Shown here: positions 9,996 through 62,556 of the stretch, piece after piece
Position numbering within the stretch: position 1 is the stretch's first letter
Layout of the letters: each line of letters begins with the position of its first letter
Assembly: GCA_038049695.1 (NCBI GenBank)
Contig: CP142461.1
Span: 25,241,001-25,305,000, forward strand
Length of the DNA: 64,000 nucleotides
From: Cinnamomum chago
Taxonomy: Eukaryota; Streptophyta; Magnoliopsida; Laurales; Lauraceae
Reading direction: 5' to 3'
The notes under the pieces: model-generated
What the model saw: only the letters and a program-made list of their open reading frames with translations
Told to the model about the DNA's origin: nothing
Databases searched by the model: none
Translations under genes and position numbers: made by a program

Positions 9996-10406
9996 ATGAA
10001 TTCAAACACTTTCAATCCACTTGCGACCATCCTCAACCAAAATAAGTTAGTGGGATCAAACTATGTAGACTGGAAACGGAACCTAGATATTGTCCTGACA
10101 GCTTCAGGATACAAATATGTCCTTACCAAACCCCCCCTTGATGAGCCATTGCCAGAAGCATCACAGGAAGAAAAGGAACTTTACACCAAGTGGGCCAAAG
10201 ACGATGAGATGGCCAGATGTTACATACAGGCATCTATGTCTAGTGTTTTACAACACCAACATCAATCCTTTAAGACTGCATATGATATTATATCAAACTT
10301 AAAGGAGATGTTTGCGGAACAGGGTAGGCCTGCTAGACAGGCTGCTATGAGGGTGCTTATAAGCACCAGATGGCTGAAGGCACACCAGTACAGGACCATA
10401 TGTTGA
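9996..10406 (+). pseudogene. gag: Copia gag, N-terminal part (frameshifted)
   Basis: Encodes the N-terminal Gag region of a plant Copia polyprotein, the structural protein of the virus-like particle. I chose the ATG at 9996 (MNSNTFNPLATIL) rather than the upstream in-frame ATG at 9969, because the family-like sequence starts there. The segment has the plant-Gag pattern of a tryptophan-containing N-terminus (VDWKRNL) followed by a helical region. Near 10358 the frame slips by one nucleotide and the protein continues in the ORF beginning at 10370. The last dozen codons of this ORF are therefore out of frame. Non-functional as it stands. Confidence 0.85.
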
Positions 10407-11113: not shown

Positions 11114-11114
11114 T

Positions 11115-30700: not shown

Positions 30701-31921
30701 CAAACCGAAAAGAATCTCGAAATAACCTACAATGCGCATCTTAGCCCCGCATCCCTTCAATTGGATTTCGAGGCGTAAGACTAGAGTACGACACATGAAA
30801 CCTTATTTTCTTTTAAAACTCAATCCCGGAGTCTTCTATAAGGAGTATTTGGACCGAGAGTCGCATTAAACACATAGTAAAGTCAACAATTTTGTACTGC
30901 TCCATTGATTGTGTTTTCGTACAGAAGTTCTGTACGACGCGCCCGAGGTTCGGGTTTTAGCCTCTTCAAACGCTGAACTCCCAGAAGTGTTTTCCAAACC
31001 CAAGATTCACCCGAAACCCGTTTCTAACCGAAAAGAATCTTGCATTTTGAGGCGCAAGAGTAGTGTACGAAACTTTAAACCTTATTTTCAATTAAAACTC
31101 AATCCAGGAGTTTTCTAGAAGGAGTTTTGGACCGAGAGTCGCATGAAACACATAGTAGAGTCAACAATTTCGTATAGCTCCATTGATTGCATTTTCGTAC
31201 AAAAGTTCCGTCCGACGCGCCCGAAGTTCGGGTTTTAGCCTTTTCAGACGCAGAACTCCCTGAAGTTTTTTCCAAACCCAAGATCCGCCCAAAACCCGTT
31301 TCAAACCGAAAAGAATCTTGAAATAACCTACAATGCGCATCTCAACCCAGAATCCCTTCAATTGGGTTTTGAGGCGTAAGACTAGGTACGACACTTGAAA
31401 CCTTATTTCACTTTAAAACTCGATCCCGAAGTTTTCTAGAAGGTGTATTTGGACCGAGAGTCGCATGAAACACAAAGTAGAGTCAACAATTTTGTACTGC
31501 TCCATTGATTGAGTCTTTATACAGAAATTCCGTACGACGCTTCCGAAGTTCTGCTTTTAGCCTTTTCAGTCGCAGAACTCCCTGAAGTGTTTACTAAACC
31601 CAAGATTCACCCGAAACTCGTTTGAAACCGAAAAGAATCTCGAAATAACCTACAATGCGCATCTCAACCCAGAATCCCTTCAATTGGAGTTCGAGGAGTA
31701 AGACTAGAGTACGACACTTGAAACCTTATTTTCTATTAAAAATCGATCATGGAGATTTCTAGAAAGAGTATTTGGACCGAGTGTCACATGAAACACATAG
31801 TAGAGTCAACAATTTCGTATAGTACATTCACTGTATTTTCGTACAGATGTTCCGTACGACGCGTCCGAAGTTCGGGTTTTAGCCTTTCAAATGCAAAACT
31901 CCCTAAAGTATTTACCAAACC
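27712..31921. repeat. Satellite array III (about 13 monomers)
   Basis: Begins with the ATGCG TSD of the preceding Gypsy element and ends abruptly at the TGTCGCGACC start of Gypsy element 2 (31922). Monomer types alternate; a run D-E-C-F-G (types defined by the segment before CCGTACGACG) at about 29600-31100 recurs in the same order at about 46130-47700 on the other side of Gypsy 2. One monomer near 31036 lacks about 70 bp. Confidence 0.95.
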
Positions 31922-34930: not shown

Positions 34931-35200
34931 TCGGTCAGCTCGCGGTTAGCCGAAATGGGACCTCGCGGCTAGCCGCAAGCTGACCGCTGGAACTCAGGGC
35001 AGGAAACTTGGCTCTCTGGAAAAGGAGCCGAAAAGCTTTCGGTTGGCTTACGGTTAGCTGCAAGGGAACTGGCGGCTAGCCGTGAGCTGACCGCAGGACC
35101 CTAATGCAGAAGTCAGCTACTGGAAAAGGAACCGCTGATTTCGGTTGGCTCGCGGTTAGCCGAAATGGGGATTGCGGCTAGCTGCCAGCTGACCGAAACT
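34931..35200. repeat. GCTAGC palindrome cluster (Gypsy 2 LTR)
   Basis: Repeated GCGGCTAGCCGC-type palindromes, perfect at 34965-34976, with variants GCGGTTAGCCG and GCGGCTAGCTGC. Pairs are flanked by CGGTCAGCT and AGCTGACCG (34932-34940 and 34979-34987), giving a nested inverted arrangement that occurs about three times. It occupies the place of the CTCGAG cluster in Gypsy 1 and the GATCGATC cluster in the solo Gypsy LTR. Confidence 0.85.
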
Positions 35201-36408
35201 GCACGGGAAATGCAGTTCAGTGCAGATTTTTTCACATTTCCTTCTTCCCTTCTACTTGTTTTTCATTCCACCTACATTCCCTGAGCCTCAATGCTCTCCA
35301 AGGGATAAAATACACATTTTCTCACAAATTCCAAACATCCAAACCAAGGAAAACGTGATCATGAAGCTTATAAACATGTTCATATGCAAAATTTCTAGAA
35401 CAACAATGTAATCAAAATACAGATGCAACAATGATCCTATAGAGATTACTTGCCTTGTCCAAATGCTAAACAATCATCCTCAAGTACTTCGCTCAAGCTA
35501 TTCCAACACTACAAGAATCCCAAGGAAAAACTCACTCAAACTCAACAAAAATGAAGACAAAGAACCCATTTCCACAAAAGGGTTTGTAAACATGGAAAAC
35601 AAGATCTTTAAGAACTAATAAGACTTCATGAAAAACATGGGTTGAAGCTCTTACCTAGAAATGGTCAAACAAGAGGGAAGGAAGAGAATGGAGCTCTTGC
35701 CCAACTTGGAACTTTAAGAAATTTGCATCAATGGAAAGCTTAGGATGGGAGGAAGAAGATGATAGCCTTAGAATTTTATTTGGAGAACTCTAGCTTGGCA
35801 TGCAAGAGGAATGAAGTGGAAGAAAAGAGGGTTTTCCCTCCTTTGGCTGCTCTAGGGTTTGGCTTCAGAATGAAAAGAGTAAAGGAGGAAGAAGATTGAC
35901 TCAAACCCTAGCAAAAGGGGCCCAATGACTTGAACCTTGAAATGACAAAAACATGATCTTGTGAGCCTCGGATGACTTCGACGAAGAAGGATAAAACGAT
36001 CCTCAAAATATCTAGTTTCCAAAAAGTATACTTTTGACAAGGTTTTGAGATCTCGAAAATTGTGTCCAATTTGTGCATAAAAGACAATTTTACCCTTCTT
36101 GGGCCAGAACTTGGGATTTTTGGACTTCAAACATTAATGGGCTGGAAACGAAAGTCGTAACACATAGTAAAATCATTAAATGAAATCAAAACCACAATTA
36201 CACGGAACCCGATGCGATCCTTCCAAGCTTACGCGTGCACTCAGGCCTTCCTGAGTGTGTCTTACTAATACTAAACGTTCTCAAAATTCCCAAAGCTATG
36301 TCCAAGACTAAAACTAATAATTTCTAACCCAACGACAACTAAACCCACTTAGGACTAAACACACACTAATCGCACACTAATCGAAATAGTCTGGGTCGGG
36401 GTCTAACA

Positions 36409-36421
36409 TCCTCCACCCCTT
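36409..36421 (-). other. Polypurine tract, Gypsy element 2
   Basis: AAGGGGTGGAGGA on the minus strand, identical to Gypsy 1. Confidence 0.88.
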
Positions 36422-36469
36422 AGGATATTTGGTCCACCAAATAAATCAAACAATTACCTTTGGTAAAAG

Positions 36470-37347
36470 CTATGGATACTTCCTCTGCACTTGATCTCTC
36501 AATTCCCACGTGGCTTCCTCTGACTCGTGATTTTCCCAAAGTACCTTGACCCAATGAATAGTCCGATTTCTCAATTCTTGCTCTTTGGTATCGATGATCT
36601 TGATCAGCCTTTCCACATACGAGGCATCTTCCCGAATCTCCAAAGGTTCGTGTTGTAGAATGTGTGAAGGACTAGAAACATATTTCTTGAGCATAGAAAC
36701 ATGAAATATATTGTGCACTCCGGAGAGTTCCGGCGGTAACGCAAGTCTATATGCGACATCTCCAATCTTGCTCAAAATCTCATACAGACCAATAAACCTT
36801 CTAGACAATTTGCCCTTCTGTCCGAATCTCAAAGTCCTTCTAACTGGTGAGATCTTCAAGAACACCTTGTCACCCACCTGAAACTGCAATTCTCTTCGGC
36901 GAGTATCTCCATAACTCTTCTGCCTACTTCGGGCGATCTTCAAACGTTCCTGAATCAGCTTGACCTTGTCACTTGTCTCTCCAACTATCGTTGGTCCATG
37001 AAAACTACGTTCACCGACTTCTTCCCAGCAAACCGGAGTTCTACATCTCCTACCATAAAGTGCCTCAAAAGGTGTCATACCGATGCTAGAGTGGTAACTA
37101 TTGTTATACGCAAATTCACAAAGTGGTAAACACTCATCCCACTGAACCTTGAAATCCAATACACAAGCACGCAACATGTCTTCGAGAGTCTGTATTGTCC
37201 TCTTTGACTGACCATCTGTCTGAGGATGATATGCCGTGCTGAACTGGAGTTTGGTACCCATCGACTCATGAAGTGTTTTCCAAAACTTTGAAACGAACCT
37301 ACTGTCTTTGTCTGAAGTAATGGAGACGGGCTGACCATGTTTACTAA
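36470..37347 (-). pseudogene. Gypsy 2 integrase, C-terminal half
   Basis: Starts at the nested insertion ([13 protein letters not shown]) and runs through the catalytic core to the chromodomain-like tail (IHWVKVLWENHESEEATWEL). The 35 residues between the second catalytic Asp and the third catalytic position are complete here, and that position (37202-37204, in GQSKR) encodes Lys instead of Glu, exactly as in Gypsy 1. The frame ends in TAG a few residues before the Gypsy 1 end. Apparent N-terminal residues upstream of 37347 would come from the inserted LTR and are not part of the protein. Confidence 0.9.
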
Positions 37348-37844
37348 TGTTAGGTATTTTGTATTTGCAATTTGATGGATGCATTTGCACTTTAGCATCA
37401 TTTGATATTTCACACATGCATTGTTTTTAGAAACATTGAAATCTAGTTTTATACATGCATAGCTTTTAAGATTTGGAAAAGTATTTGTTATATGCATGTT
37501 TTGGTTTTAAACTTGGATGCATTAGTTTTGAAACCCAAACTCTTTTGAAAACCTATATCCTTGTGCATTATATTTGGAAAATCATCTTGAGTTTGTAGGT
37601 TTGAGCCTTGCATACATTCTTCACAAAAAGAATCATTTTTGTATGCATTTTCATTTGGAAAGAGTTTTATCAAATCAAGCTAGCCTTTGGTTTTAAATCT
37701 TTGAATCATTTTAGGCTTTGTGTGTTTCATGTTTTTAAATGTTTTAAAACATGTTTTTAAGCTTGGTTTAGTGACCCACAAAATTCCACAAAGAAAATCT
37801 TCAAAATGTAAAAGTTGGAATTTTTGGGGGTGTCCCGGCAGTGT

Positions 37845-37990
37845 CGCCGGTCGACCGAGACCTGGGTCTCGGTCGACCGAGAACACTGCAGGGCAAATGG
37901 GCTGTTTTTTGAACTGAAGCCCCAACGGTCAGAAATCTGACCGTTGTGCCTTCTCGGTCGACCGAGACCTCTTTGCCGGTCGACCGAGAA
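37845..37990. repeat. GTCGAC palindromes and long inverted repeat, 5' LTR promoter
   Basis: Four CGGTCGACCG-type palindromes in two pairs; CTCGGTCGACCGAG is perfect at 37868-37881 and 37953-37966. Between the pairs is an 11-bp inverted repeat CAACGGTCAGA/TCTGACCGTTG (37923-37933 and 37936-37946) with a two-base loop. The cluster ends about 24 bp before the TATA box. The 3' LTR copy is at 43516-43661. Confidence 0.9.
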
Positions 37991-38013
37991 CTAGCCGTTG
38001 GCAACTTTTTGGC

Positions 38014-38019
38014 TATAAA
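38014..38019 (+). promoter_or_regulatory. TATA box of the Gag-only element
   Basis: TATAAA in GGCTATAAAGTCC, preceded by CTAGCCGTTGGCAACTTTTT. The same site is at 43685-43690 in the 3' LTR and, on the minus strand, at 54626-54631 in a related solo LTR. Confidence 0.75.
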
Positions 38020-38670
38020 GTCCATTCATTTCCAACCTTTTTCAAGGCTTGAACTATGAACTTTTGAGAGCATTTTGGAGCCAAAGAAAGGGGAAGAAGT
38101 TGGAAAGGCTAGAGGGCTATTTGGAAATCAAACTTCTGAGTTTTTAAAAGGTACATCTTCTAAGTTATTTTGATTTCCATACAATTGAAATTCATGCATG
38201 TTCAAATCCTTTGTATTTTCATTTATGCATGATTTCAAGTCCTTAAAGAGTTGATTTGCAAGCTCAATATCTTTCTTGGTAAATTAGATTAGTTTGCAAT
38301 CACTCTTATCAAATCACATGTTTTCTTAAACTTTATTTTTCATACAACTTGTGATTCTTTGAATTTCATGTCATTAACAAGTTGTTTATTATTCATGTGA
38401 TTTGCATAGAACTTCAATCATATCTTTTTGTGCCTTAAACTTTCAAATTGCATTAAGCATAAATTGATTGAGCTTTCTTTTTAATCTTGATTGAAGTCAT
38501 CACACACACACCTCATTAGCATACATCTTTTGCATACATAGAGTGTTTGTGTGAGTTTGTATTAAACTTTCAAATCCGCCTATTTTAAGAGGCAATTACA
38601 TTGAGCTAAAATTGTATCTCTTAGAGTGATCTTTTGTGAAGACACTTTCTTTGAGAAATCTATATTTGTA

Positions 38671-38875
38671 AAGGTTATTGCTAAGCCTAAGAAAAGCAAC
38701 TTGTAAGGTTATTGCTTAGCCTAATAAAAGCATATTGTAGGGTTATTGCTTAGCCTAAGAAAAGCATCTTGATAGGTTATTGCTTAGCCTTGAAAAGCAT
38801 CTTGTAAAGGTTGTTGTTGAGCCTTAGAAAAACAACTTTGTAAGGGTTATTGCTTAGCCTAGTAAAAAGCATAAT
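38671..38875 (+). repeat. Tandem mini-hairpin array in LTR (about 33-bp units, six copies)
   Basis: Units of the form TTATTGCTTAGCCTAAGAAA followed by AGCAT, each capable of a short stem (TTGCT/AGCAA or ATGCTT-type pairs). The fifth unit has TTGTT pairing with AACAA, a paired change relative to TTGCT/AGCAA. The array lies downstream of the TATA box, hence probably in the transcribed R/U5 part. A copy is at 44342-44546; related arrays are at 33750-33870 and, inverted, at 53845-53980. Confidence 0.8.
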
Positions 38876-39129
38876 TAGTGGAATCCGGTGGGGTGTTGGA
38901 GACACAAGCCGGTAGTGGATGTAGGCACGTTGGCCGAACCACTATAAATATTGGTGTTGTGGTGCATGCTATGTGGTGATTGTTTTGTTTAGCTTCCGCA
39001 TATTGATTGATCATTCATCACATGTGACTAGTTTTGTTTAAGAAATTAAAATTGGTTTAAATTGGTCACAATTGTAGCTCACCCTATTCACCCCCCCCTC
39101 TAGGGTTAGGATCCTCGTGGACTTTCAAT

Positions 39130-39141
39130 TGGTATCAGAGC
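39130..39141 (+). other. Primer-binding site (tRNA-iMet), Gag-only element
   Basis: TGGTATCAGAGC, two bases after the 5' LTR. Confidence 0.93.
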
Positions 39142-39243
39142 CAAGTGCTCTAATCCCTTAGGATCAAGTGTTTGGAACTCTTGATTAGGTGTAAAAACCT
39201 AGAGTTTAAACCCTAGTGTTGTGCTTCCTTGAAAATCATTAGA

Positions 39244-40632
39244 ATGGACTCCACTATGCTAGATCTTGTAGATTCTTCTAGACCCCTCATTCCTCCTTCT
39301 ATTGGAGATTCAAACTTTCAATCTAATGAATCTCAATGTGACATAAAAGAGGAAGAAAATGATTATGATGAAGATGATCTTCAACAAGCCTATAATGAAT
39401 TATATACATTATCTTCCAAGCTTGATAAGAGAAATAGAAGTTTAAGAGAAGAATCTATGAAACTAAACAAAGAGCTAGTCTCTTCAAAAGATGAACTTAG
39501 AGAGAAAGAAGAAGTAATAAATTGTGTAGAATCTAAGTTCATGATCTCTATGAATAATCTATCTAACATTCAAGATGAACTAAATGAATTAAAGATGGAT
39601 TATGATAAAGTCAATAAGGAAAATTTAATTCTAAGAGATCAAATAAAAAGGCAAGACAAAGACTTTAACAACTTAGAAGCCAAGTTGATTAAAAGTAAGT
39701 TAAAAACACAAGAACTTGGATCTAAAGTTGTTAATGAACTAAAACATGAATTAAAACTTGCCAATGAAGAGATAAGCAAACATAAGGATATTGAAAATGA
39801 ACTTTCAAAAGTTAAAAATGAAAATTCCATCCTTATAACCAAAGTCACTCAACTTGAAGTTTACAAACAAAAGTATGAGTGCAAGTTTACCCAAAGTGAA
39901 GAAAGACTTGAAAAATTATTTAAATTGGGTAAACCTCATGGAGATAGGACGGGTCTTGGATTTAATAGGAATATGTTACATGACCCTAAATTCACCAACA
40001 CTTTTGTGAAAGGTGAGTCCTCATTCTCTAGCACTCTTTCTCCTTTGCCCAAAACCAAATGTAATTTTTGTGGCATTGAAGGACATTTTATGTTTGAGTG
40101 CAAACTAAGGAAAAGAAGCCATGTGTCTAAACCCATCTTTGAACTCAAGAAAGTAAAATCAAACTTGAAGGGTAAGACACTAAAAACAAAGGAAGACTCC
40201 ATAAAGCTTAAACAAGTTAAACCAATTAACAAGGAGTCTCCAAAAATAGATTCTAAAAAGGTTAAACAAGTCAAACCAAGTTTAAAAGAATCTATTAACA
40301 AAAAGCTTCTCAACCTACCTCCCTTAAGTCAAAGCATGAAAGAACTTTTGAAGAAATTTACTAAGTTAAATCTAAATTTCAAAAGTCAAAGAAAGGGAGA
40401 AAATAAGAAGAAAAGAAATTTGAAGCAATCCCCTATGAAACAAACTCACCAACTCTCTAAGACTAATCATCAATCTAAAAAAGTCAAACCTCAAAGATTT
40501 GATGTTAAGTCTAAAAGAATTTATCAAGTCAAATCTCCTTTAGTTGGTGAGAAGTCCAAAATAGACCTCAAAGTTCAACCCTCCCAAGACCTTAGGTGGA
40601 TTCCAAAAGTCATTTACTTAGATAAACCTTAA
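39244..40632 (+). CDS. gag: Gag protein of a non-autonomous Sirevirus-like element
   Basis: Uninterrupted 462-codon frame, 103 bp after the PBS. I start at ATG 39244 (MDSTMLDLVDSS); an earlier in-frame start would need TTG. Residues about 35-220 are highly charged and heptad-like (LYTLSSKLDKRNRSLREES), predicting a long coiled coil. A single CCHC zinc knuckle, CNFCGIEGHFMFEC, lies at about 271-284. The remaining 175 residues are Lys-rich (repeated VKQVKP, KKVK) and probably bind nucleic acid. The usual Copia Gag capsid region before the coiled coil is short or absent. No protease motif follows. The intact frame in an element with near-identical LTRs suggests that the protein is, or recently was, made. 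It could co-assemble with Gag of an autonomous relative. Confidence 0.88.
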   Translation: MDSTMLDLVDSSRPLIPPSIGDSNFQSNESQCDIKEEENDYDEDDLQQAYNELYTLSSKLDKRNRSLREESMKLNKELVSSKDELREKEEVINCVESKFMISMNNLSNIQDELNELKMDYDKVNKENLILRDQIKRQDKDFNNLEAKLIKSKLKTQELGSKVVNELKHELKLANEEISKHKDIENELSKVKNENSILITKVTQLEVYKQKYECKFTQSEERLEKLFKLGKPHGDRTGLGFNRNMLHDPKFTNTFVKGESSFSSTLSPLPKTKCNFCGIEGHFMFECKLRKRSHVSKPIFELKKVKSNLKGKTLKTKEDSIKLKQVKPINKESPKIDSKKVKQVKPSLKESINKKLLNLPPLSQSMKELLKKFTKLNLNFKSQRKGENKKKRNLKQSPMKQTHQLSKTNHQSKKVKPQRFDVKSKRIYQVKSPLVGEKSKIDLKVQPSQDLRWIPKVIYLDKP

Positions 40633-40645
40633 GGCCTTGGACCTC

Positions 40646-42414
40646 ATTGACCAACCTATCTCTTTATTAGTTAAATCACTTTGTTGGTCATGATTGCATT
40701 TGCATTTTGTTTCTTTTAGTTAGATTTCTTAAAATGCATTGCTTCTTTATGATCATTTGATTTTGGTTTCATGCACCATTCTAAGTTACATGTCATGGTT
40801 TTCAAAATCATTTGATTATAATTTCATCATGTTTGATTTGTCTTTTGCACACATATGTCTTGCATTGCATTTCTTTACATGATCAATTGATTGTGATTTC
40901 AAAAGCTTTCATAGCTAGACTCTTCATGATCAATTGTTGAATCATTTGTGTTTATGTCATAGTAAGATTATTTGAACAAATGATTTGAATCAATTCAAGT
41001 TTTCCATGGATTTATAAGTTATACTTTTATATGGAGAACATTGTTTTGAAAAATCAACTTGTATGTGTTTTAATGAAGTTATATCTTTTCAAATACAATG
41101 TTGATAATTGATCTTCAAAATCATTCCTTTATGCTCATTGTTGGATTTTGTTTTTCAAAATGATTTGAAGATTGTTTTGAATGGAAATGCTTTTTAATCT
41201 CATTAGTTATATTCATCTAAGCATGTTCCATTATTTTCATTTCCTTTTCTTTTGGTTTCATTATATTAGAATTGGAAATGAATGTTGTTTGCATCTTTGC
41301 TTTTTTAGTTATTCTTTTTATATGCAAATGACTATTGGTTCCATGTATGGTTGTGTTCTTAGTTACATTTGTAGAATCCATACTAGAACCCAAATCCATC
41401 CTCTATGCCTTATAGTCATATCTTTATGGATGGTTATGATGTTGATTCATGTAGATTTTCTTGGTGTCATCTTTATACATGTTTCAACTTCACAAGTAGT
41501 GTTCTTAATCATATGAATCTCTTTGAAATCCATTCCTTGCATTTATGTTGGTTGATGGATATCTTAGTAGTTGAATTCATATGATTTGGACACTTTGGAA
41601 ATTGCATGTTTTACAAAGTAATATCCTTTTGCATTGCAATTTACCTTGTTCATCACTATGCTCAATAGTCATATCTTTAAAAGTGATGAATATGCATTTA
41701 TGATGCTTGTTTGAATTTTGTCACATTCTTGCTCTTTATCATGTTATCAAATTCAATTGGATTCAATTGGTATAATGTTTGATTGATTTGATTTCTTGTG
41801 AATGTGATAAACCTTGTGTGCATTGGATTGAACTTGATAAGTAATATGATTGTTCCATGTCACACACCATTAGCATCATAATGTTCATGTTGCCACCTCT
41901 TTTGCTCATATAGGTATATCTCATGACCACCATGTTTATGTGTTAATAATATTGGTTGGTTATTATTTGAGGTTGGCTTCATGTTTGAATTTCATTTCAT
42001 TCATTCTTGCACATTAATAGTCATATTTATTGATTGAATGAAATGATTTTCAAAATCTTACATAGCATATGATTTTCATAAGTAATATTGATTGATGCTA
42101 TGTTTGAGTAAACCCCTTATCATGGATAGCTCTAATTTGGATTTTTCCTAATAAGTAAAATTCTTGAATCCATTTTAGAGTGATTGTGCTAATAGTCACA
42201 TCCTTAAATCTCAATTGATATGTTTATTTCAATTGATATCCATGATTGCTTTTCCCATTAGACCTTGCCTTCTTTTGGTAATTTGATCATATGAGCTTTA
42301 TAGTTAAATGAATCTAATCCTTTCCTTGAAGTTGACCCTCACATTGGTTAAACCATCTTCTTCTTGAATCTAATAGTTATATCTTGTCAAAAGCTTGACA
42401 AAAGAAGAGAATGG
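40646..42414 (+). repeat. Array of about twenty inverted repeats with a shared loop motif
   Basis: Consecutive imperfect inverted repeats with unrelated stems. Clear cases (left arm/right arm): 40648-40655/40683-40690; 40696-40708/40731-40742; 40931-40948/40977-40996; 40999-41007/41031-41039; 41180-41191/41220-41232; 41337-41350/41378-41390; 41441-41453/41476-41488; 41599-41608/41632-41642; 41649-41657/41682-41690 (perfect); 41746-41757/41782-41792; 41816-41827/41854-41867; 41992-42002/42036-42046 (perfect); 42060-42068/42095-42103 (perfect); 42130-42143/42167-42180; 42353-42365/42401-42414. Loops are mostly 20-28 nt and contain AGTNATATCTTT-like text (starts at 40669, 40718, 40961, 41017, 41077, 41205, 41361, 41414, 41617, 41667, 41840, 42019, 42081, 42154, 42374), usually 13-17 nt before the right arm. 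No coding sequence here; the ORF 41181-41516 arises from the repeated motif. Confidence 0.87.
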
Positions 42415-43006
42415 ATTGAGGGGGAGTGTAACCCTTCGTAGGAAGAATTAGTTTTGATCAAATTCACCCTTGGATTGCCTTTGAGCCCTTAGAGTTAACT
42501 TACATACATGATAGCCTGTTATGAATTTCATTTTCGATTTCATTTGTTAACAGGTGCTACTCAAGGTATTCTTCTTGTCTCATGTGTGTAGGTACCTTTG
42601 CAATTTAATGTCAAAGGGGGAGAGAGAGTTCAAGTGTGACTCAAAGATCTCCTACTCTTCAAAGGGGGAGAGAGTTCGAGAGTTCAAGTACTCGAAGATC
42701 TCCTATCCATCAAAGGGGGAGAAAGCTTTCAAGTTCTCAAGAGGAGAAAGAAGCATGGTCAAAGGGGGAGAGCAAATAGAAGAAAGAAAGCTTGGAGCTA
42801 AAGAAGATGCTTGGCCATAGAGAGGAAGATGATAAGAAAGCTTGAAGAATGATCAAGCTCCAAGCATCAAGAAGATTGAAGAAAAGAGCCCAAGAGCCCA
42901 AGCTAAGAGAAGGAGCATCCAAGAAGATTTCAAGACTTGTCCAGCTTAGGGGGAGCTGAAGACAGAGTGTGTAATTTCAATGATGAGTAAGTAGCCATCA
43001 AATTGC
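42415..43006 (+). other. Purine-tract repeats before the 3' LTR
   Basis: Noncoding. It contains GAGGGGGAGTG at about 42418 and four AAAGGGGGAGA-type tracts (42613, 42661, 42712, 42761) in partly repeated surroundings (CTCGAAGATCTCCTA, GAGAGTTCAAG). They closely match the true polypurine tract at 43007. Repeated polypurine tracts near the 3' LTR are a known Sirevirus trait. Confidence 0.75.
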
Positions 43007-43017
43007 AAAGGGGGAGA
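43007..43017 (+). other. Polypurine tract, Gag-only element
   Basis: AAAGGGGGAGA, one base before the 3' LTR. Confidence 0.92.
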
Positions 43018-43018
43018 T

Positions 43019-44800
43019 TGTTAGGTATTTTGTATTTGCAATTTGATGGATGCATTTGCACTTTAGCATCATTTGATATTTCACACATGCATTGCTTTTA
43101 GAAACATTGAAATCTAGTTTTATACATGCATAGCTTTTAAGATTTGGAAAAGTATTTGTTATATGCATGTTTTGGTTTTAAACTTGGATGCATTAGTTTT
43201 GAAACCCAAACTCTTTTGAAAACCTATATCCTTGTGCATTATATTTGGAAAATCATCTTGAGTTTGTAGGTTTGAGCCTTGCATACATTCTTCACAAAAA
43301 GAATCATTTTTGTATGCATTTTCATTTGGAAAGAGTTTTATCAAATCAAGCTAGCCTTTGGTTTTAAATCTTTGAATCATTTTAGGCTTTGTGTGTTTCA
43401 TGTTTTTAAATGTTTTAAAACATGTTTTTAAGCTTGGTTTAGTGACCCACAAAATTCCACAAAGAAAATCTTCAAAATGTAAAAGTTGGAATTTTTGGGG
43501 GTGTCCCGGCAGTGTCGCCGGTCGACCGAGACCTGGGTCTCGGTCGACCGAGAACACTGCAGGGCAAATGGGCTGTTTTTTGAACTGAAGCCCCAACGGT
43601 CAGAAATCTGACCGTTGTGCCTTCTCGGTCGACCGAGACCTCTTTGCCGGTCGACCGAGAACTAGCCGTTGGCAACTTTTTGGCTATAAAGTCCATTCAT
43701 TTCCAACCTTTTTCAAGGCTTGAACTATGAACTTTTGAGAGCATTTTGGAGCCAAAGAAAGGGGAAGAAGTTGGAAAGGCTAGAGGGCTATTTGGAAATC
43801 AAACTTCTGAGTTTTTAAAAGGTACATCTTCTAAGTTATTTTGATTTCCATACAATTGAAATTCATGCATGTTCAAATCCTTTGTATTTTCATTTATGCA
43901 TGATTTCAAGTCCTTAAAGAGTTGATTTGCAAGCTCAATATCTTTCTTGGTAAATTAGATTAGTTTGCAATCACTCTTATCAAATCACATGTTTTCTTAA
44001 ACTTTATTTTTCATACAACTTGTGATTCTTTGAATTTCATGTCATTAACAAGTTGTTTATTATTCATGTGATTTGCATAGAACTTCAATCATATCTTTTT
44101 GTGCCTTAAACTTTCAAATTGCATTAAGCATAAATTGATTGAGCTTTCTTTTTAATCTTGATTGAAGTCATCACACACACACCTCATTAGCATACATCTT
44201 TTGCATACATAGAGTGTTTGTGTGAGTTTGTATTAAACTTTCAAATCCGCCTATTTTAAGAGGCAATTACATTGAGCTAAAATTGTATCTCTTAGAGTGA
44301 TCTTTTGTGAAGACACTTTCTTTGAGAAATCTATATTTGTAAAGGTTATTGCTAAGCCTAAGAAAAGCAACTTGTAAGGTTATTGCTTAGCCTAATAAAA
44401 GCATATTGTAGGGTTATTGCTTAGCCTAAGAAAAGCATCTTGATAGGTTATTGCTTAGCCTTGAAAAGCATCTTGTAAAGGTTGTTGTTGAGCCTTAGAA
44501 AAACAACTTTGTAAGGGTTATTGCTTAGCCTAGTAAAAAGCATAATTAGTGGAATCCGGTGGGGTGTTGGAGACACAAGCCGGTAGTGGATGTAGGCACG
44601 TTGGCCGAACCACTATAAATATTGGTGTTGTGGTGCATGCTATGTGGTGATTGTTTTGTTTAGCTTCCGCATATTGATTGATCATTCATCACATGTGACT
44701 AGTTTTGTTTAAGAAATTAAAATTGGTTTAAATTGGTCACAATTGTAGCTCACCCTATTCACCCCCCCCCCCTCTAGGGTTAGGATCCCAAGGACTTTCA
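43019..44800 (+). repeat. 3' LTR of the Gag-only element (1782 bp)
   Basis: Near-identical to 37348-39127, including the palindrome cluster (43516-43661), TATA box (43685-43690) and mini-hairpin array (44342-44546). It is followed by the TSD ACTAA. Confidence 0.95.
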
Positions 44801-45838
44801 ACTAACAATCTCTTCAACAAATAACTTCGCAAGTGGTGCCATATGCATCATATTCCCTATCTTCATCGGAATGAAATGAGCAGACTTTGTCAGACGATCT
44901 ACAATAATCCAAATTGCATTATTTCCCTTCTTGGTATTCGGCAAACCGGAAACGAAATCCATGGTGATGTGCTCCCATTTCCACTCCGGAATCTCCAACG
45001 GTTGTAACAAACCCGGGGGCTTCTGATGCTCTGCCTTAATCAACTGACAAGTTAGACAACGAGACACAAAAGCTGCTATCTCTCTCTTCATGTTGTTCCA
45101 CCAAAATCTATTCTTCAAATCGTGGTACATCTTCGTGCTACCCGGATGCATAGAATATCTGGTGCTATGAGCTTCATTCATTATTTCACTCTTCAAGTCA
45201 TCCACATTTGGCACACACAACCGGTCACGAAAATACAATATCCCATTTACCATCTTGAAATCTGGACGTTCTATAATAACCTCTACTATCTTAGCCAAGT
45301 CTGGGTCTTGCAACTGACTTTCCTTGATCTTCTGGATGAAGGTAGGTTCTGATACTGTCATATTTACTAACATCGCACCCAATTTTAGGGTTTGCACTTC
45401 TACACCCACCTCTTCAAACTGCTGTAAGACACCCATTCCTCTCAAATTGGCCATAACCACTGATTTCCTACTCAATGCATCAGCTACAACATTCACTTTG
45501 CCTGGATGATATTTGATTGAAAAGTCATAATCTTTGATATACTCCATCCACCGTCTCTGCCTCATATTTAAGTCCTTCTACAAAGACAAATATTGTAAAC
45601 TTCGGTGATCTGAATGGACCTCAAATTTCTCTCCATAGAGATAGTGTCTCCACATTTTCAATGCGAAAACAACTGCTGCCAACTCCAAGTCATGAGTCGC
45701 ATAGTTCTTCTCATGGTCCTTCAACTGTCTTGAGCCATAAGCAATCACCTTGCCATCTTGCATCAATACACAACCCAGTCCCACATTCGAAGCACCTGTA
45801 TAAACAATAAACCCGCCACTGCTCGAGGGAAATGTAAG
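44801..45838 (-). pseudogene. Gypsy 2 RNase H (partial) and integrase N-terminal half
   Basis: Continues the integrase on the other side of the nested element: reading ends EEIVS at the TSD and resumes KHGQ at 37347. It contains the HHCC zinc-binding region ([22 protein letters not shown]) and the first catalytic Asp ([13 protein letters not shown]). RNase H sequence extends upstream but has a TAG at about 45578-45580, where Gypsy 1 has CAG (Gln). In its first motif, VYTGASNVG, the catalytic Asp is Gly. The RNase H is cut at the satellite junction near 45838, and the RT is missing. Confidence 0.9.
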
Positions 45839-48800
45839 AGTAGTGTACCAAAAGTTCCGTCCAACGCGCCTGAAATTTAGCCGTTTCAAACGCAGAACTC
45901 CCAAAACGGTTTACCAAACCCAACATTCACCCGAAACCCATTTCAAACCGAAAAGAATCTCGAAATAACCTGGAATGCGCATCTCAGCAGAGAATCCCTT
46001 CAATTGCATTTTGAGGCACAAGAGTAGTGTACGAAACTTTAAACCTTATTTTCAATTAAAACTCAATCCAGGAGTTTTCTAGAAGGAGTTTTGGACCGAG
46101 AGTCGCATGAAACACATAGTAGAGTCAACAATTTCGTATAGCTCCATTGATTGCATTTTCGTACAAAAGTTCCGTCCGACGCGCCCGAAGTTCGGGTTTT
46201 AGCCTTTTCAGACGCAGAACTCCCTGAAGTTTTTTCCAAACCCAAGATCCGCCCAAAACCCGTTTCAAACCGAAAAGAATTTCGAAATAACCTACAATGC
46301 GCATCTCAGCCCAGAATCCCTTCAATTGGATTTCAAGGCGTAAGACTAGAGTACGACACTTGAAACCCTATTTTCAATTATAAGTCGATACCGGAGTTTT
46401 CTAGAAGGAGTATTTGGACCGAGAGTCGCATGAAACACATAGTAGAGTCAACAATTTCGTATAGCTACATTGATTGTGTTTTGTACAGATGTTCAATACG
46501 ACGCGCCCGAAGTTCGGATTTTAGCCTTTTCAAACGCACAACTCCCTGAAGTGTTTTCCAAACCCAAGATTCCCCCGAAACCCGTTTCAAATAAAAAAGA
46601 ATCTCGAATTAACCTACAATGCGCATCTCAACCCTGAATCTCTTCAATTGGATTTCGAGGCGTAAGACTAGAGTACGACACTAGAAACCCTTTTTTCCTT
46701 TAAAACTCGATCCCAGAGTTTTCTAGAAGGAGTATCTGGACCGAGAGTCGCATGAAACACATAGTATAGTCAACAATTTCGTAAAGCTACATTGATTGAG
46801 TTTTCATACAGAAGTTCCGTACGACACCCCCGAAGTTCGACTTTTAGCCTTTTCAGTCGCAGAACTCCCTGAAGTGTTTACCAAACCCAAGATTCACCCG
46901 AAACCCATTTCAACCCGAAAAGAATCTCGAAATAACCTACAATGCGCAACTCAGCCCGGAATCCCTTCAATTGGATTTCGAGGCATAAGACTAGGGTACG
47001 ACACTTGAAACCATATTTTCTATTAATGCTCGATCCTGGAGTTTTCTAGAAAGAGTATTTGCACCGAGGGTCGCATGAAACACATAGTAGAGTCAACAAT
47101 TTTGTAGTACTCCATTGATTGTGTTTTCGTGCAGAAGTCCCGTACAACGCGCCCGAAGTTCGAGTTTAAGCCTTTTCAGACGTAGAACTCCCTAAAGTGT
47201 TTACCAAACCCAACATTCTCCCGAAACAAGTTTCAAACCGAATAGAATCTCGAAATAACCTACACTGCACATCTCAGCCCCGAATCCCTTCAATTGGATT
47301 TCGAGGCGTAAGACGAGAGTATGACACATGTAACCAAATTTTCTTTTAAAACTTGATCCCGCAGTTTTCTATAAGGAGCATTCGGACCGAGAGTCGAATT
47401 AAACACATAGTAAAGTCAACAATTTTCTAGTACTCCATTGATTGTGATTTCGTATAGAAGTTTCGTACGATGCGTCCGAGGTTCGGGTTTTAGCCGCTTC
47501 AGACGCAAAACTCCCTGAAGTGTTTTCCAAACCCAAGATTCACCCGAAACCCGTTTCAAACAGAAAAGAACCTCGAAATAACCTACAAAGCGCATCTCAA
47601 CCCAGAATCCCTTCAATTGGATTTTGAGGCGTAAGAGTAGAGTACAACACTTGAAACCTTATTTCCTTTTGAAACTCCATCCCGGAGTTTTCTAGAATGA
47701 GTATTTGGACCGAGAGTCGCATGAAACACATGGTAGAGTCAACAATTTTTTACTGCTCCATTGATTGAGTTTTTATACAGAAGTTCCGTATGATGCTCCC
47801 GAAGTTCATCTTTTAGCCTTTTCAGTTGTAGAACTCCATTAAGTGTTTACCAACCCAAGATTCACCCGAAACTCGTTTCAAACCGAAAAGAATCTCGAAA
47901 TAACCTACAATGCGAATCTCACCCCAGAATCCCTTCAATTGGATTTCGAGGCGTAAGACTGGAGTACGACACTTGAAACCTTATTTTCTGTTAAAGCTCG
48001 ATCCTAGAGTCTTCTAGAATGAGTATTTGGACCGAGAGTCGCATGAAACACATAGCAGAGTCAACAATTTTGTACTGCTCCATTGATTGAGTTTTTATAC
48101 AGAAGTTCCATACGACGCTCCCGAAGTTCTGCTTTTAGCCTTTTCAGTCACAGAACTCCATTAAATGTTTACCAAACCCAAGATTCACCCGAAACTCGTT
48201 TCAAACCGAAAAGAATCTCGAAATAAACTACAATGCGCATCTCACCCCAGAATCCCTTCAATTGGATTTCGAGGCGTAAGACTGGAGTACGACACTTGAA
48301 ACCTTATTTTCTATTAAAGCTCGATCCTGGAGTTTTCTAGAATGAGTATTTGGACTGAGAGTCGCATGAAACACATTGTAGAGTCAACAATTTCGTAAAG
48401 CTACAATGATTGAGTTTTCATACAGAAGTTCTGTACGACGCTCCTAAAGTTCAGCTCTTAGCATATTCAGTCGCAGAATTCCTTGAAGTGTTTACCAAAC
48501 CCAAGATTCACCCGAAAATCGTTTCAAACCGAAAAGAATCTCGAAATAACCTACAATGTGCATCTCACCCCAGAATACCGTCAAATGGATTTCGAGGTGT
48601 AAGACTAGAGTACGACACTTGAATCCATATTTTCTATTAAAGCTGGTTCCTGGACTATTCTAGAATGAGTATTTGGACCGAGAGTCGCATGAAACACATA
48701 GCAGAGTCAATAATTTTGTACTGCTCCATTGATTGATTTTTTATACAGAAGTTTCGTACGACGCTCCTGAAGTTCTTCTTTTAGCCTTTTCAGTCGCAGA

Positions 48801-51800
48801 ACATCCTTAAGGGTTTACCAAACCCAAGATTCACCCAAAACTTGTTTTAAAACCGAAAAGAATCTCGAAATAACCTACAATGCGCATCTCAACACAGAAT
48901 CCCTTCAATTGGATTTCGAGGCGTAAGACTAGAGTACGACACTTGAAACCTTATTTTCTTTTAAAGCTCGATCCTGGAGATTTCTAGAAAGATCTTTTGG
49001 AACAAGAGTCGCATGAAACACATAGTAGAGTCAACAATTTCGTATAGCTACATTCATTATATTTTTTTACAGATGTTCCATACGACGCGTCCGCAGTTCG
49101 GGTTTTGGCCTTTTTAGACGCAGAACTCCCTTAACTATTTACCAAACCCCACATTCACCCGAAACCCATTTCAAACCGAAAAGAATCTCGAAATAACCTA
49201 CAATACTTATCTGAGCCCCGAATCCCTTCAATTGGATTTCGGGGAGTAAGACTAGAGTACGACACTTGAAACCTTTTTTTCTTTTCAAAGTCGATCCCGG
49301 AGTTTTCTAGAAGAAGTATTTGGACCGAGAGTCGCATGAAACACAGAGTAGAGTCAACAATTTCATAAAGCTACAATGATAGAGTTTTCATACAGAAGTT
49401 TCGTATGACGCTCCCGAAGTTCTGCTTTTAGCCTTTTCAGTCGCAGAACTCCATTAAGTGTTTACCAAACCAAAGATTCACCCGAAACTCGTTTCAAACC
49501 GAAAAGAATCTCGAAAAAACCGACAATGGGCATCTCACCCTAGAATCCCTTCAATTGGATTTCGAGGCGAAAGACTGGAGTACGACACTTGAAACCTTAT
49601 TTTCTATTAAAGCTCGATCCTGGAGTTTTCTAGACTGAGTATTCGGACCGAGAGTCGCATGAAACATATAGTGGAGTCAACAATTTCGTATAGCTACATT
49701 CATTGAATTTTCGTACAGAGGTTCCGTACGACGCGTCCGAAGTTCGGGTTTTAGTCTTTTCAGACGCAGAACTCCCTAAAGTATTTACCAAACCCAACAT
49801 TCTGCCGAAACCCGTTTCAAACCGAAAAGAATTTCGAAATAACCTACAATGCGCATCTCAGCGCCGAATCATTTCAATTGGAATTCGAGGTGTAAGACTA
49901 GAATACGACACTTGAAACCTTATTTTCTATTAAAGCTTGATCCTGGACTTTTCTAGAATGAGTATTTTGACCGAGAGTCGCATGAAACACATTGCAGAGT
50001 CAACAATTTTATACTGCTCCATTGATTGATTTTTTATACAGAAGTTCCGTACGACGCTCCCAAAGTTCTGCTATTAGCCTTTTCAGTCACAGAACTCCAT
50101 TAAGTGTTTACCAAACCCAAGATTCACCCGAAACTCGTTTTAAAACCGAAAAGAATCTCGAAATAACCTACAATGTGCATCTCACCCAGAATCCCTTCAA
50201 TTGGATTTCGAGGCGTAAGACTGGAGTACGACACTTGAAACCTTATTTTCTATTAAAGCTCGATCCTGGAGTTTTCCAGAATGAGTATTTGGACCGAGAG
50301 TTGCATGAAACACGTAGTAGAGTCAACAATTTCGTATAGCTACATTCATTGTATTTTCGTAAAGATGATCCGTACGACGTGTCTGAAGTTCGAGTTTTAG
50401 CCTTTTTAGACGCGGAACTCCCTTAAGTATTTACCAAACCCAACATTCTCCCGAAACCCGTTTCAAACCGAAAAGAATTTCGAAATAACCTACAATGCGC
50501 ATCTCAGCCTCAAATCCCTTTAATTGGATTTCGAGGTGTAAGACTAGAGTACGACACTTGAAACCTTATTTTCTATTAAAGCTCAATCCTGGAGTTTTCT
50601 AGAATTATTATTTGGACCGAGAGTCGCATGAAACACATAGCGGAGTCAACAATTTTGTACTGCTCCATTGATTGAGTTTTTATACAGAAGTTCCGTACGA
50701 CGCTCCCGAAGTTCTGCTTTTAGCCTTTTGAGTCGCAGAACTTCATTAAGTGTTTACCAAACCCAAGATTCACCCGAAACTCGTTTCAAACCGAAAAGAA
50801 TCTCGAAATAACCTACAATGCGCATCTCACCCCAAAATCCCTTCAATTGGATTTCGTGGCATAAGACCGGAGTACGACACTTGAAACCTTATTTTCTATT
50901 AAAGGTCGATCCTGGAGTTTTCTAGAATGAGTATTTGGACCGAGAGTCGTATGAAACACATAGTAGAGTCAACCATTTCGTATAGCTACATTCATTGTAT
51001 TTTCGTACAGATGTTCCGTACGACGCCTCTGCAGTTCGGGTTTTAGCTTATTCAGACGCAGAACTCCCTTAAGTATTTACCAAACCCAACATTCTCCCGA
51101 AACCCGTTTCAAATCGAAAAGAAATTCGAAATAACCTACAATGCGCATCATAGCCCAGAATCCCTTCAATTGGATTTCGAGGTGTAAGACTAGACTACGA
51201 CGCTTGAAACCATATTTTCTATTAAAGGTCGATCCTGGACTTTTCTAGAATGAATATTTGAACCGAGAGTCGAATGAAACACATAGCAGAGTCAAAAATT
51301 TTGTACAGTTCCATTGATTGAGTTTTTATACAGAAGTTTCGTACGACGCTCCCGAAGTTCTGCTTTTAGCCTTTTCAGTCGCAGAACATCCTTAAGTGTT
51401 TAACAAACCCAAGATTCACCCGAAACTCGTTTCAAACCGAATAGAATCTCGAAATAACCTACAATGCGCATCTCACCCCAGAATCCATTCAATTGGATTT
51501 CGAGGCGTAAGACTAGAGTACGACACTCGAAACCTTATTTTCTATTAAAGCTCGATCCTGGAGTTTTCTAGAATGAGTGTTTGGACTGAGAGTCGGATGA
51601 AACACATAGTAGAATCAACAATTTCGTATAGCTACATTCACTGTATTTTCGGACAAATGTTCCGTACGACGGGTCCGAAGTTCGGGTTTTAGCCTTTTCA
51701 GACGCAGAACTCCCTAAAGTGTTTAACAAACCCAACATTCTCCCGAAACCCGTTTCAAACCGAAAAGAATTTCGAAATAACCAACAATGCGCATCTCAGG

Positions 51801-53536
51801 CCCGAATCCTTTCAATTGGATTTCGAGGTGTAAGACTAGAGTACGACACTTGAAACCATATTTTCTACTAAAGCTCGATCCTGGACTTTTCTAGAATGAG
51901 TATTTGGACCGAGAGTCGCATGAAACACATAGTAGAGTCAACAATTTCGTAAAGCTACAACGATTGAGTTTTCATACAGAAGTTCCGTACGACGCTCCCG
52001 ATGTTCTGCTTTTAGCCTATTCAGTCGTAGAACTCCATTAAGTGTTTAGCAAACCCAAGATTCACCCGAAACTCGTTTCAAACCGAAAAGAATCTCGAAA
52101 TAACCTACAATGCGCATCTCACCCCAGAATCCCTTCAATTGGATTTCGAGGCGTAAGACCGGAGTACGACACTTGAAACCTTATTTTCTTTTAAAGGTCG
52201 ATCCTGGAGTTTTCTAGAATGAGTATTTGGACCGAGAGTCGCATGAAACACATAGTAGAGTCAACCATTTCGTATAGCTACATTCATTGTATTTTCGTAC
52301 AGATGTTCCGTACGACGCCTCCGCAGTTCGGGTTTTAGCTTATTCAGACGCAGAACTCCCTTAAGTGTTTACCAAACCCAACATTCTCCTGAAACCCGTT
52401 TCAAACCGAAAAGAAATTCGAAATTACCTACAATGCGCATCACAGCCCCGAATCCCTTCAATTGGATTTCGAGGTGTAAGACTAGAGTACGACACTTGAA
52501 ACCATATTTTTTATTAAAGCTCGTTCCTGGACTTTTCTAGAATGAGTATTTGGACCGAGAGTCGAATGAAACACATAGCAGAGTAAAAAAATTTGTACTG
52601 CTCCATTGATTTAGTTTTTATACTGAAGTTCCGTATGACGCTCCCGAAGTTCTGCTTTTAGCCTTTTCAGTCGCAGAACATCCTTAAGTGTTTACCAAAC
52701 CCAAGATTCACCCGAAACTCGTTTCAAACCGAAAAGAATCTCGAAATAACCTACAATGCGCATCTCACCCCAGAATCCATTCAATTGGATTTCGAGGCGT
52801 AAGACTGGAGTACGACACTTGAAACCATATTTTCTATTAAAGCTCGATCCTCGAGTTTTCTAGAATGAGTGTTTGGACCGAGAGTCGGATGAAACACATA
52901 GTAGAGTCAACAATTTCGTATAGCTACATTCATTGTATTTTCGTACAAATGTTCCGTACGACGGGTCCGAAGTTCGGGTTTTAGCCTTTTCAGACGCAGA
53001 ACTCCCTAAAGTGTTTAACAAACCCAACATTCTCCCGAAACCCGTTTCAAACCGAAAAGAATTTCGAAATAACCAATAATGCGCATCTCAGGCCCGAATC
53101 CCTTCAATTGGATTTCGAGGTGTAAGACTAGAGTACGACACTTGAAACCTTATTTTCTATTAAAGCTCGATCCTGGACTTTTCTAGAATGAGTATTTGGA
53201 CCGAGAGTCGCATGAAACACATAGTAGAGTCAACAATTTCGTAAAGCTACAACGATTGAGTTTTCATACAGAAGTTCCGTACGACGCTCCCGAAGTTCTG
53301 CTTTTAGCCTATTCAGTCATAGAACTCCATTAAGTGTTTAGCAAACCCAAGATTCACCCGAAACTCGTTTCAAACCGAAAAGAATCTCGAAATAACCTAC
53401 AATGCGCATCTCACCCCAGAATCCCTTCAATTGGATTTCGAGGCGTAAGACCGGAGTACGACACTTGAAACCTTATTTTCTATTAAAGGTCGATCCTGGA
53501 GTTTTCTAGAATGAGTATTTGGACCGAGAGTCGCAT
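45839..53536. repeat. Satellite array IV (about 24 monomers; 4-mer higher-order repeats at right)
   Basis: Starts in a disturbed monomer at the Gypsy 2 junction. The left part (46130-47700) repeats the D-E-C-F-G monomer order of array III; the right part settles into an alternating pattern and, from about 50975, a four-monomer unit. The marker GTAAAGCTACAACG occurs at 51949 and 53241, exactly 1292 bp apart. The last five bases before 53537 (CGCAT) are a TSD. Confidence 0.95.
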
Positions 53537-61200: not shown

Positions 61201-62556
61201 GTCAATAATTTTGTACTGCTCCATTGATTGAGTTTTTATACAGTAGTTCCGTACGACGCTCCTGAAGTTCTGCTTTTAGCCTTTTGAGTCGCAGAACTAC
61301 ATTAAGTGTTTACCAAACCCAAGATTCACCCAAAACTCATTTTAAAACCGAAAAGAATCTCGAAATAACGTACAATGCGCATCTCACCCCAGAATCCCTT
61401 CAATTGGATTTCGAGGCGTAAGACTGGAGTATGACACTTGAAACCTTATTTTCTATTAAAACTCGATCCTGGAGTTTTCTCGAATGAGTGTTTGGACCGA
61501 GAGTCGCTTGAAACACATAGTAGAGTCAACATTTTCGTATAGCTACATTCATTATATTTTCGTACAAATGTCCGTACGACGCGTCCGAAGTTCTGGTTTT
61601 AACCTTTTCAGACGCAGAACTCCCTAAAGTGTTTACCAAACTCAACATTCTCCCGAAACCCGTTTCAAACCGAAAAGAATTTCGAAAGAACCTACATTGC
61701 GCATCTCAGCCCCGAATCCCTTCAATTGGATTTCGAGGTGTAAGACTAGAGTACGACACTTGAAACCTTATTTTCTAATAAAGCTCGATCCTGGACTTTT
61801 ATAGAATGAGTATTTTGACCGAGAGTCGCATGAAACACATAGCAGAGTCAACAATTTTGTACTACTCCATTGATTGAGTTTTTATACAGAAATTCCGTAC
61901 GACGCTCCCGAAGTTCTGCTTTTTGCCTTTTCAGTCGCAGAACATCCTTAAGTGTTTACCAAGCCCAAGATTCACCCGAAAGTCGTTTTAAAACCGAAAA
62001 GAATCTCGAAATAACCTACAATGCGCATCCCAACACAGAATCCCTTTAATTGGATTTCGAGGCGTAAGACTAGAGTACAACACTTGAAACCTTATTTTCT
62101 ATTAAAGCTCGATCCTGGAGTTTTCTAGAAAGAGTATTTGGACCAAGAGTCGCATGAAACACATAGTAGAGTCAACAATTTCGTATAGCTACATTCATTA
62201 TATTTATGTACATATGTTCCGTACGACGCGTCCGCAGTTCGGGTTTTAGCCTTTTAAGACGCAGAACTCCCGTATGTATTTACCGAACCCAACATTCACC
62301 CGAAACCCGTTTCAAACCGAAAAGAATCTCGAAATAAACTACAATGCGTATCTGAGCCCCGAATCCCTTCAATTGGATTTCGAGGCGTAAGACCAGAGTA
62401 TGACAATTCAAACCTTTTTTTCATTTAAAAGTCGACCCCGGAGTTTTCTGGAAGAAGTATTTGGACCGAGAGTCGCATGAAACACATACTAGAGTCAACA
62501 ATTTCGTAAAGTCACAATGATTGAGTTTTCATACAGAAGTTCCGTACGACGCTATC
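58274..62556. repeat. Satellite array V (4-mer higher-order repeats)
   Basis: Continues array IV. After removing the solo LTR and one TSD copy (4742 bp), the marker GTAAAGCTACAACG at 59275 is again exactly 1292 bp from 53241, and the next occurrence (60567) is 1292 bp further. Order of monomer types: B1 (58300), A (58625), B2 (58950), C (59275), B1, A, B2, C (60567), B1, A, B2-like (61540), then A, B, C. It ends at TACGACGCT near 62553. Confidence 0.95.

Follow-up and report, generated by a model that had tools for sequence, protein, structure and literature searches.

A hairpin array with a shared loop motif in a Sirevirus-type retrotransposon of Cinnamomum chago looks like a repeated RNA docking site

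Within the 64,000 nt of Cinnamomum chago DNA that were analysed (hereafter, the window), a non-coding stretch of an LTR retrotransposon (positions 40633-42420, + strand) carries 20 strand-neutral hairpins together with 17 occurrences of AGTNANAT and 15 of AGTNANATNNNT, all motifs lying on the + strand. Judged from sequence, the hairpins and their shared loop motif look like a repeated RNA docking site kept by evolution. Direct observation covers the hairpins and the motif, the one orientation that the motif keeps in the array, and the conservation of both stems and motif letters.

The whole element spans positions 37348-44800 and is framed by ACTAA target-site duplications adjoining the LTR ends (37343-37347 on the left, 44801-44805 on the right; read directly). 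Sequence comparison of the 5' LTR (37348-39127, +) with the 3' LTR (43019-44800, +) gave 99.6% identity (3 mismatches and 4 gap columns in 1784 aligned), and hence the element is young. Assignment to the Sireviruses (Ty1/copia) was made from the terminal signals checked, the element itself being without pol. Seven AGGGGGAG polypurine tracts (PPTs; at 42419, 42615, 42663, 42714, 42763, 42948, and 43009, i.e., 42419-43016, +) lie upstream of the 3' LTR, with the terminal one 10 bp upstream of the LTR start at 43019. An inverted repeat, CCATCAAATTGCAA/TTGCAATTTGATGG (42995-43049, +; read directly), spans the terminal tract and the AT/TG attachment site in the order CCATCAAATTGCAA-AGGGGGAG-AT/TG...TTGCAATTTGATGG, and such a repeat around the terminal PPT is given as a Sirevirus feature in the part of PMC2829016 consulted. 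The junction of 5' LTR and primer binding site reads CA/ATTGG plus TATCAGAGC (ATTGG spacer and binding site at 39128-39141, +; read directly, following the definition in the same part of PMC2829016). Each LTR has four CGGTCGACCG palindromes (37848-37990) of the Sirevirus-type CGG-CCG motif, a repeated motif type listed in Table 3 of that source, and a poly-C signal, i.e., a run of C, is found near the LTR ends at about 39091 and 44762. The AGGGGGAG tracts, the PPT inverted repeat, the CGG-CCG palindromes, the poly-C signal and ATTGG-TATCAGAGC are shared with the Sireviruses of Bousios et al. 2010 (PMC2829016), the consulted sections of which describe palindromes as short boxes, located both in the LTR and ahead of env, and no stem-loop array with a loop motif. 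By these signals and its near-identical LTRs, the element is classed as a young, pol-less Sirevirus-type (Ty1/copia) retrotransposon. The initial annotation had likewise proposed a non-autonomous LTR retrotransposon lacking pol, and this was borne out: no long pol ORF is present between the LTRs in the ORF list (the only other long + strand ORF has 111 aa), and Pfam returned no family for 10 of the 12 ORFs of at least 50 aa overlapping 40640-43010, which rules out pol remnants in the array as far as these ten are concerned.

The insertion site is a minus-strand ORF that reads, by eye, as Ty3/gypsy pol. Among the matches listed in a self-comparison, satellite stretches (tandem unit of about 323 bp, higher-order period of about 646 bp) enclose the nested retroelements at window positions 1-5685, 27718-31040, 45849-53536, and 58274-62560. 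Both LTRs also contain 5.7 copies of a 34-bp tandem repeat with the consensus TTGTAAGGTTATTGCTTAGCCTAAGAAAAGCATC (38666-38861 and 44337-44532). Two protein searches in one genome scored 83 and 142 places of the family (the two sets may overlap), with thousands of further first-look candidates left unscored, and at least 40 array copies were scored in the same genome. Head-to-tail tandem copies were seen among the scored matches at G000:C1:77727988-77795627 (12 places), C2:37229068-37283561 (10 places), C12:58356973-58426550 (13 places), C7:31731784-31745447, and C11:12505560-12519112 (3 places each). Their pitch of 5.7-6.0 kb is close to the internal region plus one LTR, and they resemble the tandem arrays reported for Cassandra elements in the consulted part of PMC7215508.

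Upstream of the array lies a Gag-like ORF of 462 aa (39244-40632, +), which might, as no more than a guess, be the C-terminal part of a full-length Sirevirus Gag. Its protein has a predicted continuous helix at residues 43-227, read as a long coiled coil, a CCHC knuckle (CNFCGIEGHFMFEC) and a net charge of +40 in its C-terminal half. Zinc knuckles were its only domain match (zf-CCHC at 16.7 bits, below the Pfam cut-off of 20.8); the same family was found in five of the six family members scanned, three of them partial proteins (best E 3e-5), and no capsid family was listed among 18 families for the window protein and five relatives (three partial). The ORF is under purifying selection, with a dN/dS of 0.40-0.51 against 27 copies of the sister group (3 of 30 loci without an ORF over 1400 nt were left out). 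A BFVD fold search with the ORF model, a poor one (pLDDT 57), gave nothing at E <= 0.001, and among solved structures only HIV nucleocapsid knuckles matched (E 0.64-0.67). No relatives of P0001 were found in viral_contigs or genome_contigs, and a knuckle-region protein search for Sirevirus Gag returned only four of the five Gag-like relatives already found. According to the consulted part of PMC2829016, full-length Sirevirus Gag has a central knuckle with a coiled coil downstream and interacts with LC8 proteins.

Hairpins were counted with a strand-neutral score (A-T and G-C pairs only, no gaps, loops of 14-44 nt, non-overlapping hairpins). At a score of at least 16, the 1788 nt of the array hold 20 hairpins vs 7.3 +- 1.9 in 200 dinucleotide shuffles (max 12), and at a score of at least 20, they hold 13 vs 1.3 (max 4); local 60-nt block shuffles gave a mean of 7.9 (max 12 of 60). 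The array of about twenty stem-loops described in the initial annotation is thus reproduced by neither type of shuffle. Folding of both strands agrees, with span-80 minimum free energies at z = -8.5 (+) and -8.8 (-) for the array (60 shuffles each), -5.3/-4.7 for the gag stretch and -7.1/-7.4 for the LTR. Control stretches at 35000-36788 (8 vs 6.5) and 10000-11788 (9 vs 6.5) are without hairpin excess. In a satellite control (48000-49788), 11 hairpins vs 5.7 (max 11) were counted at a score of at least 16, 8 vs 2.1 (max 5) at 18, perhaps due to the repeated unit, and 1 vs 1.0 at 20. The three arm pairs that had been called perfect are present as such (41649-41657/41682-41690, 41992-42002/42036-42046, and 42060-42068/42095-42103). 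Typical units, all on the + strand, are TGACCAAC/GTTGGTCA with loop AGTTAAAT (40648-40690; stem invariant among the copies compared), TTGAATCATTTGT/ACAAATGATTTGA with loop AGTAAGAT (40937-40988), TTCATCACT/AGTGATGAA with loop AGTCATATCTTT (41649-41690), a hairpin with 23-nt arms 87% complementary and loop AGTCATAT (41984-42054) and ACATAGCAT/ATGCTATGT with loop AGTAATAT (42060-42103). Stems differ from unit to unit and pair with their own partners: the flanks of 24 motif sites scored a mean of 18.8 with their own partner vs 14.1 with foreign ones (0 of 20,000 permutations), and three other copies gave 0 (L063), 1 (L064), and 0 (L065) of 20,000, in line with the earlier description of interchangeable stems around a shared loop. 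An Rfam search of 37340-44830 returned 0 matches at E <= 1.

The array itself stood up as a hairpin region, but not as the sole one, as the Gag-like coding sequence and, more weakly, the LTR are also in excess. Within the coding sequence, 14 hairpins were found (39305-40521, +) vs 5.0 in 300 synonymous-codon shuffles (max 10), seven of them at a score of at least 20 vs 0.76 (max 4), and AGTNANA occurs in their loops seven times vs 0.71 (300 shuffles, max 4). Eight further copies have 13-16 coding hairpins vs 5.8-6.7, each above the largest of 100 shuffles, and 3-6 loop AGTNANA vs 0.5-0.9, above the maximum shuffle in seven of the eight and equal to it in L049. At third codon positions, variability is 0.038 in stems, 0.065 in loops and 0.060 outside. 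The initial annotation had named uncompensated arm changes as a sign against it, and here the outcome is divided. In gag (28 genes), 9 of 127 pairs show two Watson-Crick forms differing on both sides vs 0-2 in 12 slid controls, several of the nine depending on one sequence, the window copy; with L037 as the reference, the count is 6 of 135 vs 0-2. In the array, 7 of 252 pairs vs 6-11 in slid controls give no excess of compensated changes. Gag double changes between the window and the sister majority number 9 vs 3.2 expected (19 of 20,000); in the sister group, five of the nine are Watson-Crick, one is G-T, and three are broken, and when each of three sister copies served as the reference, the window was Watson-Crick at 4 of 6, 4 of 6, and 6 of 8 double changes.

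The loop motif is confined to one strand of the array. AGTNANATNNNT, which replaces the wording AGTNATATCTTT of the initial annotation while the claim of a shared motif stands, occurs there 15 times on the + strand and 0 times on the - strand (0.3 expected, max 4 of 1000 shuffles), 0 times in the rest of the element and four times on + and once on - in the rest of the window. Matches to AGTNATAT with at most one mismatch number 24 in the array, 13 of them inside hairpin loops, vs a mean of 5.8 in loops after circular shifting (6 of 1787 shifts reach 13). In 18 of 19 hand-listed units, 7-13 nt separate the left arm from the motif, and in 15 of the 19, 3-7 nt separate the motif end from the right arm, so that the near-fixed place of the motif in the loop is confirmed; its presence in nearly every loop was too strong a statement, as seven of the 20 strand-neutral hairpins are without a loop match. 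Across 24 full arrays, 13-18 AGTNANAT were counted in each, with 0-2 in reverse.

Conservation was assessed on 52 array copies from the same genome, 31 of which came from one sister search or from fetched pieces and many of which are partial arrays. Stem columns have a variability of 0.029 vs 0.080 in non-motif loop columns (p 1e-16), and columns outside the 20 hairpins have 0.050; stems are less variable than loops in 18 of the 20 hairpins and for each of the four bases. Over 19 motif sites, variability is low at A0, G1, T2, A4, A6, and T7 (0.016-0.064) and at T11 (0.039) and high at N3, N5, and N8-N10 (0.08-0.18), and the left half of the loop is free as well. Therefore, the letters common to the units are also the letters conserved between copies. 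The fixed letters (0.046) differ from the free letters (0.135, p 1e-4; 52 copies) and from the left loop (0.103, p 1e-5), a split into fixed and free positions that was made after the data had been seen and by which alone the constraint becomes visible; pooled with its N positions, the motif varies like the remaining loop (0.084 vs 0.080, p 0.9), i.e., without extra conservation. Of the objection that the loop motif might drift freely, raised in advance, the part on the whole motif thus holds, and the part on its fixed letters does not. Pairwise distances among 26 copies were 0.046 for stems, 0.067 for fixed motif letters, 0.129 for other loop positions and 0.186 for free motif and left-loop positions. 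Kissing loops between units were considered, the loop containing a self-complementary ATAT, yet its N5 varies freely (0.15), which makes selection for kissing unlikely.

Copies also differ by whole units. A block of six hairpins (40940-41287, projected on the window) is missing in 7 of the 52 copies, and three other copies miss blocks of nine, two and four hairpins; the array therefore seems to lose whole units. Two divergent, shorter arrays were found: L064 (G000:C5:62213700-62216000) keeps some units and has a different first half, and L067 (G000:C1:36297100-36298900; 71-77% array identity) has recognisable stems and no AGTNANAT. Double changes in these two number 0-3 per comparison and stand out in 1 of 12 (49 of 2000), so that the array remains without an excess of covariation when they are included. 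At L066 (G000:C1:74386500-74388400), the expected array site is taken up by unrelated sequence that includes a proline-rich ORF; a family LTR without a preceding polypurine tract comes next, and the arrangement looks nested. As the sequence at this site is unrelated, it gave no array comparison. L043 was left out, since foreign sequence interrupts it 24 nt into the array. Array divergence and gag dS do not track each other, possibly through recombination between gag and array, and because of this decoupling, array/dS ratios were not used as a test of selection.

The reading we prefer, to which we give a probability of roughly 40%, is that the array is a multivalent RNA recognition array for the element's own protein, serving as a device for packaging into, or capture of, the particles of a putative helper. 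Here, we infer the steps that go beyond conserved hairpins with a common loop. The genomic RNA would fold about 20 hairpins in the non-coding 1.8 kb downstream of the ORF and about ten more inside it, some thirty overall, with stems differing by unit and with AGUNANA(U) exposed single-stranded in most array loops and about half of the ORF loops. These loops, as a repeated recognition element of 8-12 nt, would be bound by the element's own basic, coiled-coil zinc-knuckle protein, many copies of which would cover the RNA and compact it; through its coiled coil, the protein might tether the resulting RNA-protein complex to a Gag particle made by an autonomous Sirevirus. The putative Sirevirus helper would supply capsid, reverse transcriptase and integrase, and the array would work on the principle of dispersed packaging signals in RNA viruses. 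More tentatively, and on balance doubtful, the element could be a satellite-like retrotransposon reduced to two mutually recognising parts: an RNA built, in its coding as well as its non-coding sequence, from one hairpin unit (loop AGUNANAU), and a capsid-less coiled-coil zinc-knuckle adaptor that reads the unit some 20 or more times and hands the RNA to a helper particle.

A selected recognition array could instead be read by a host RNA-binding protein with a role in the stability, nuclear export or localisation of the gag-like mRNA or in repressing its translation, an account that is unlikely but deserves serious weight. AGUNANAU, with its alternating free positions, suits base-specific protein contacts, the conservation data are silent on which protein makes them, and in that mRNA the array would belong to the 3' UTR. 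However, units also run through the coding sequence, a better fit to coating of the whole RNA than to a 3'-UTR switch, and the only long ORF of the element encodes a basic, knuckle-bearing protein. Distinctly unlikely is a variant in which the Gag of an autonomous helper Sirevirus reads the units, the element's own protein being accessory and the loops being expected in the helper RNA as well; the terminal signals are of Sirevirus type (compared with the consulted part of PMC2829016), for which reason a Sirevirus helper would be expected.

We consider it quite improbable that the hairpins are a feature of DNA or cDNA without RNA function, i.e., cruciforms or the outcome of quasipalindrome (templated) mutation during reverse transcription. 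The equal structure of both strands, the presence of hairpins in LTR and gag and an array without excess covariation would all suit such an origin, as does the behaviour of G-T pairs, which the initial annotation had taken as an argument for RNA: in a paralogue test on 11 arrays, G-T scoring added no more to the own-partner signal than A-C scoring did, and gag shows 11 G-T vs 17 A-C events, no G-T excess, so that G-T pairs were set aside as not decisive. Against it, G-T states in the array exceed A-C states (50 vs 26 events at a neutral expectation of 52%, p 0.015; 13 vs 3 among shared events, p 0.02; 31 vs 17 on the stricter pair set, p 0.06), which is what pairing of the + strand RNA would give. 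Loop positions also vary three to four times as much as stems, one motif recurs in one orientation at near-fixed loop positions, and double changes in coding DNA lie above expectation. Overall, the strand evidence is mixed; RNA is favoured by the single motif orientation and by hairpins that overlap a gene on its sense strand.

That the hairpins are substrates or decoys of a host small-RNA pathway, a role proposed for the palindromic LTR hairpins of maize Sireviruses, appears very improbable: in maize, structured Sirevirus/copia regions show small-RNA enrichment (PMC10760457, in the part consulted), but most stems here are short for such processing, and the conserved loop letters would be left unexplained. 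Outside the CGG-CCG boxes, the LTR of the present element has six hairpins vs 2.3 at 37360-37830 and six vs 2.7 at 38000-38660 (2 of 200 shuffles reach the observed count in each stretch), with AGTNANA absent from both stretches and a stem variability of 0.082 vs 0.114 in loops (p 0.05; three full hairpins and part of a fourth); given the absent motif and the weak difference between stem and loop, they were rejected as part of the array code. Chance structure of AU-rich sequence can be dismissed, since the shuffles of array and coding sequence, the own-partner permutations and the fixed-letter conservation all contradict it, and the weak z-scores in its favour come from fixed 120-nt windows (array mean about -1.1, the same as gag and LTR), a coarse test that was dropped as too blunt.

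In its proposed working principle, the array comes nearest to dispersed packaging signals, in which stems vary and a loop motif is shared, and the host element is nearest to TR-GAG elements and LARDs. Many stem-loops, variable stems and a common loop motif are found here too. In single-stranded RNA viruses, multiple genome-wide RNA sites contact the coat or core protein via a loop motif, the cases including satellite tobacco necrosis virus, MS2, enteroviruses, and HBV (PMC3593212, PMC7793301, PMC6281560, and PMC8677749, in the parts consulted). In contrast, the spread here is limited to gag and array and does not include the LTR, some 20 units adjoin one another in non-coding retrotransposon sequence, and the protein proposed to read them is no capsid protein. 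TR-GAG elements, terminal-repeat retrotransposons with a GAG domain, have LTRs and a gag-type ORF and no pol. The present element is likewise an LTR element with a gag-type ORF and no pol, although its ORF is without a detected capsid domain, and the TR-GAG literature, in the parts consulted and among the matches listed, mentions no hairpin array. In the genome-scale ordered RNA structure (GORS) of RNA viruses, structure runs along the genome including coding sequence, and we know of no common loop motif there; among the matches listed, the consulted parts of the GORS literature hold no plant LTR-retrotransposon case like the array. According to the consulted part of PMC7215508, gag, pol and env are all missing from LARDs and TRIMs, whereas this element keeps a selected 462-aa Gag-like gene and has a structure built of one repeated unit with a single loop motif; the structured RNAs of LARDs are nonetheless among the closest kinds. 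In the literature searched, mostly at the level of listed matches, no such array was described in any retroelement.

The family is large, and its RNA carries about 20 copies of a conserved unit beside the gene for a likely RNA-binding protein. As the unit measures about 45 nt, tests by binding, mutation and probing would be simple. The finding bears on how the RNA of a pol-less retrotransposon gets chosen by the particle of another element. If the satellite-like, two-part reading is true, no earlier retroelement would be known to carry a dense, dedicated loop-code array, and packaging-signal theory would gain a natural test bed outside viruses.
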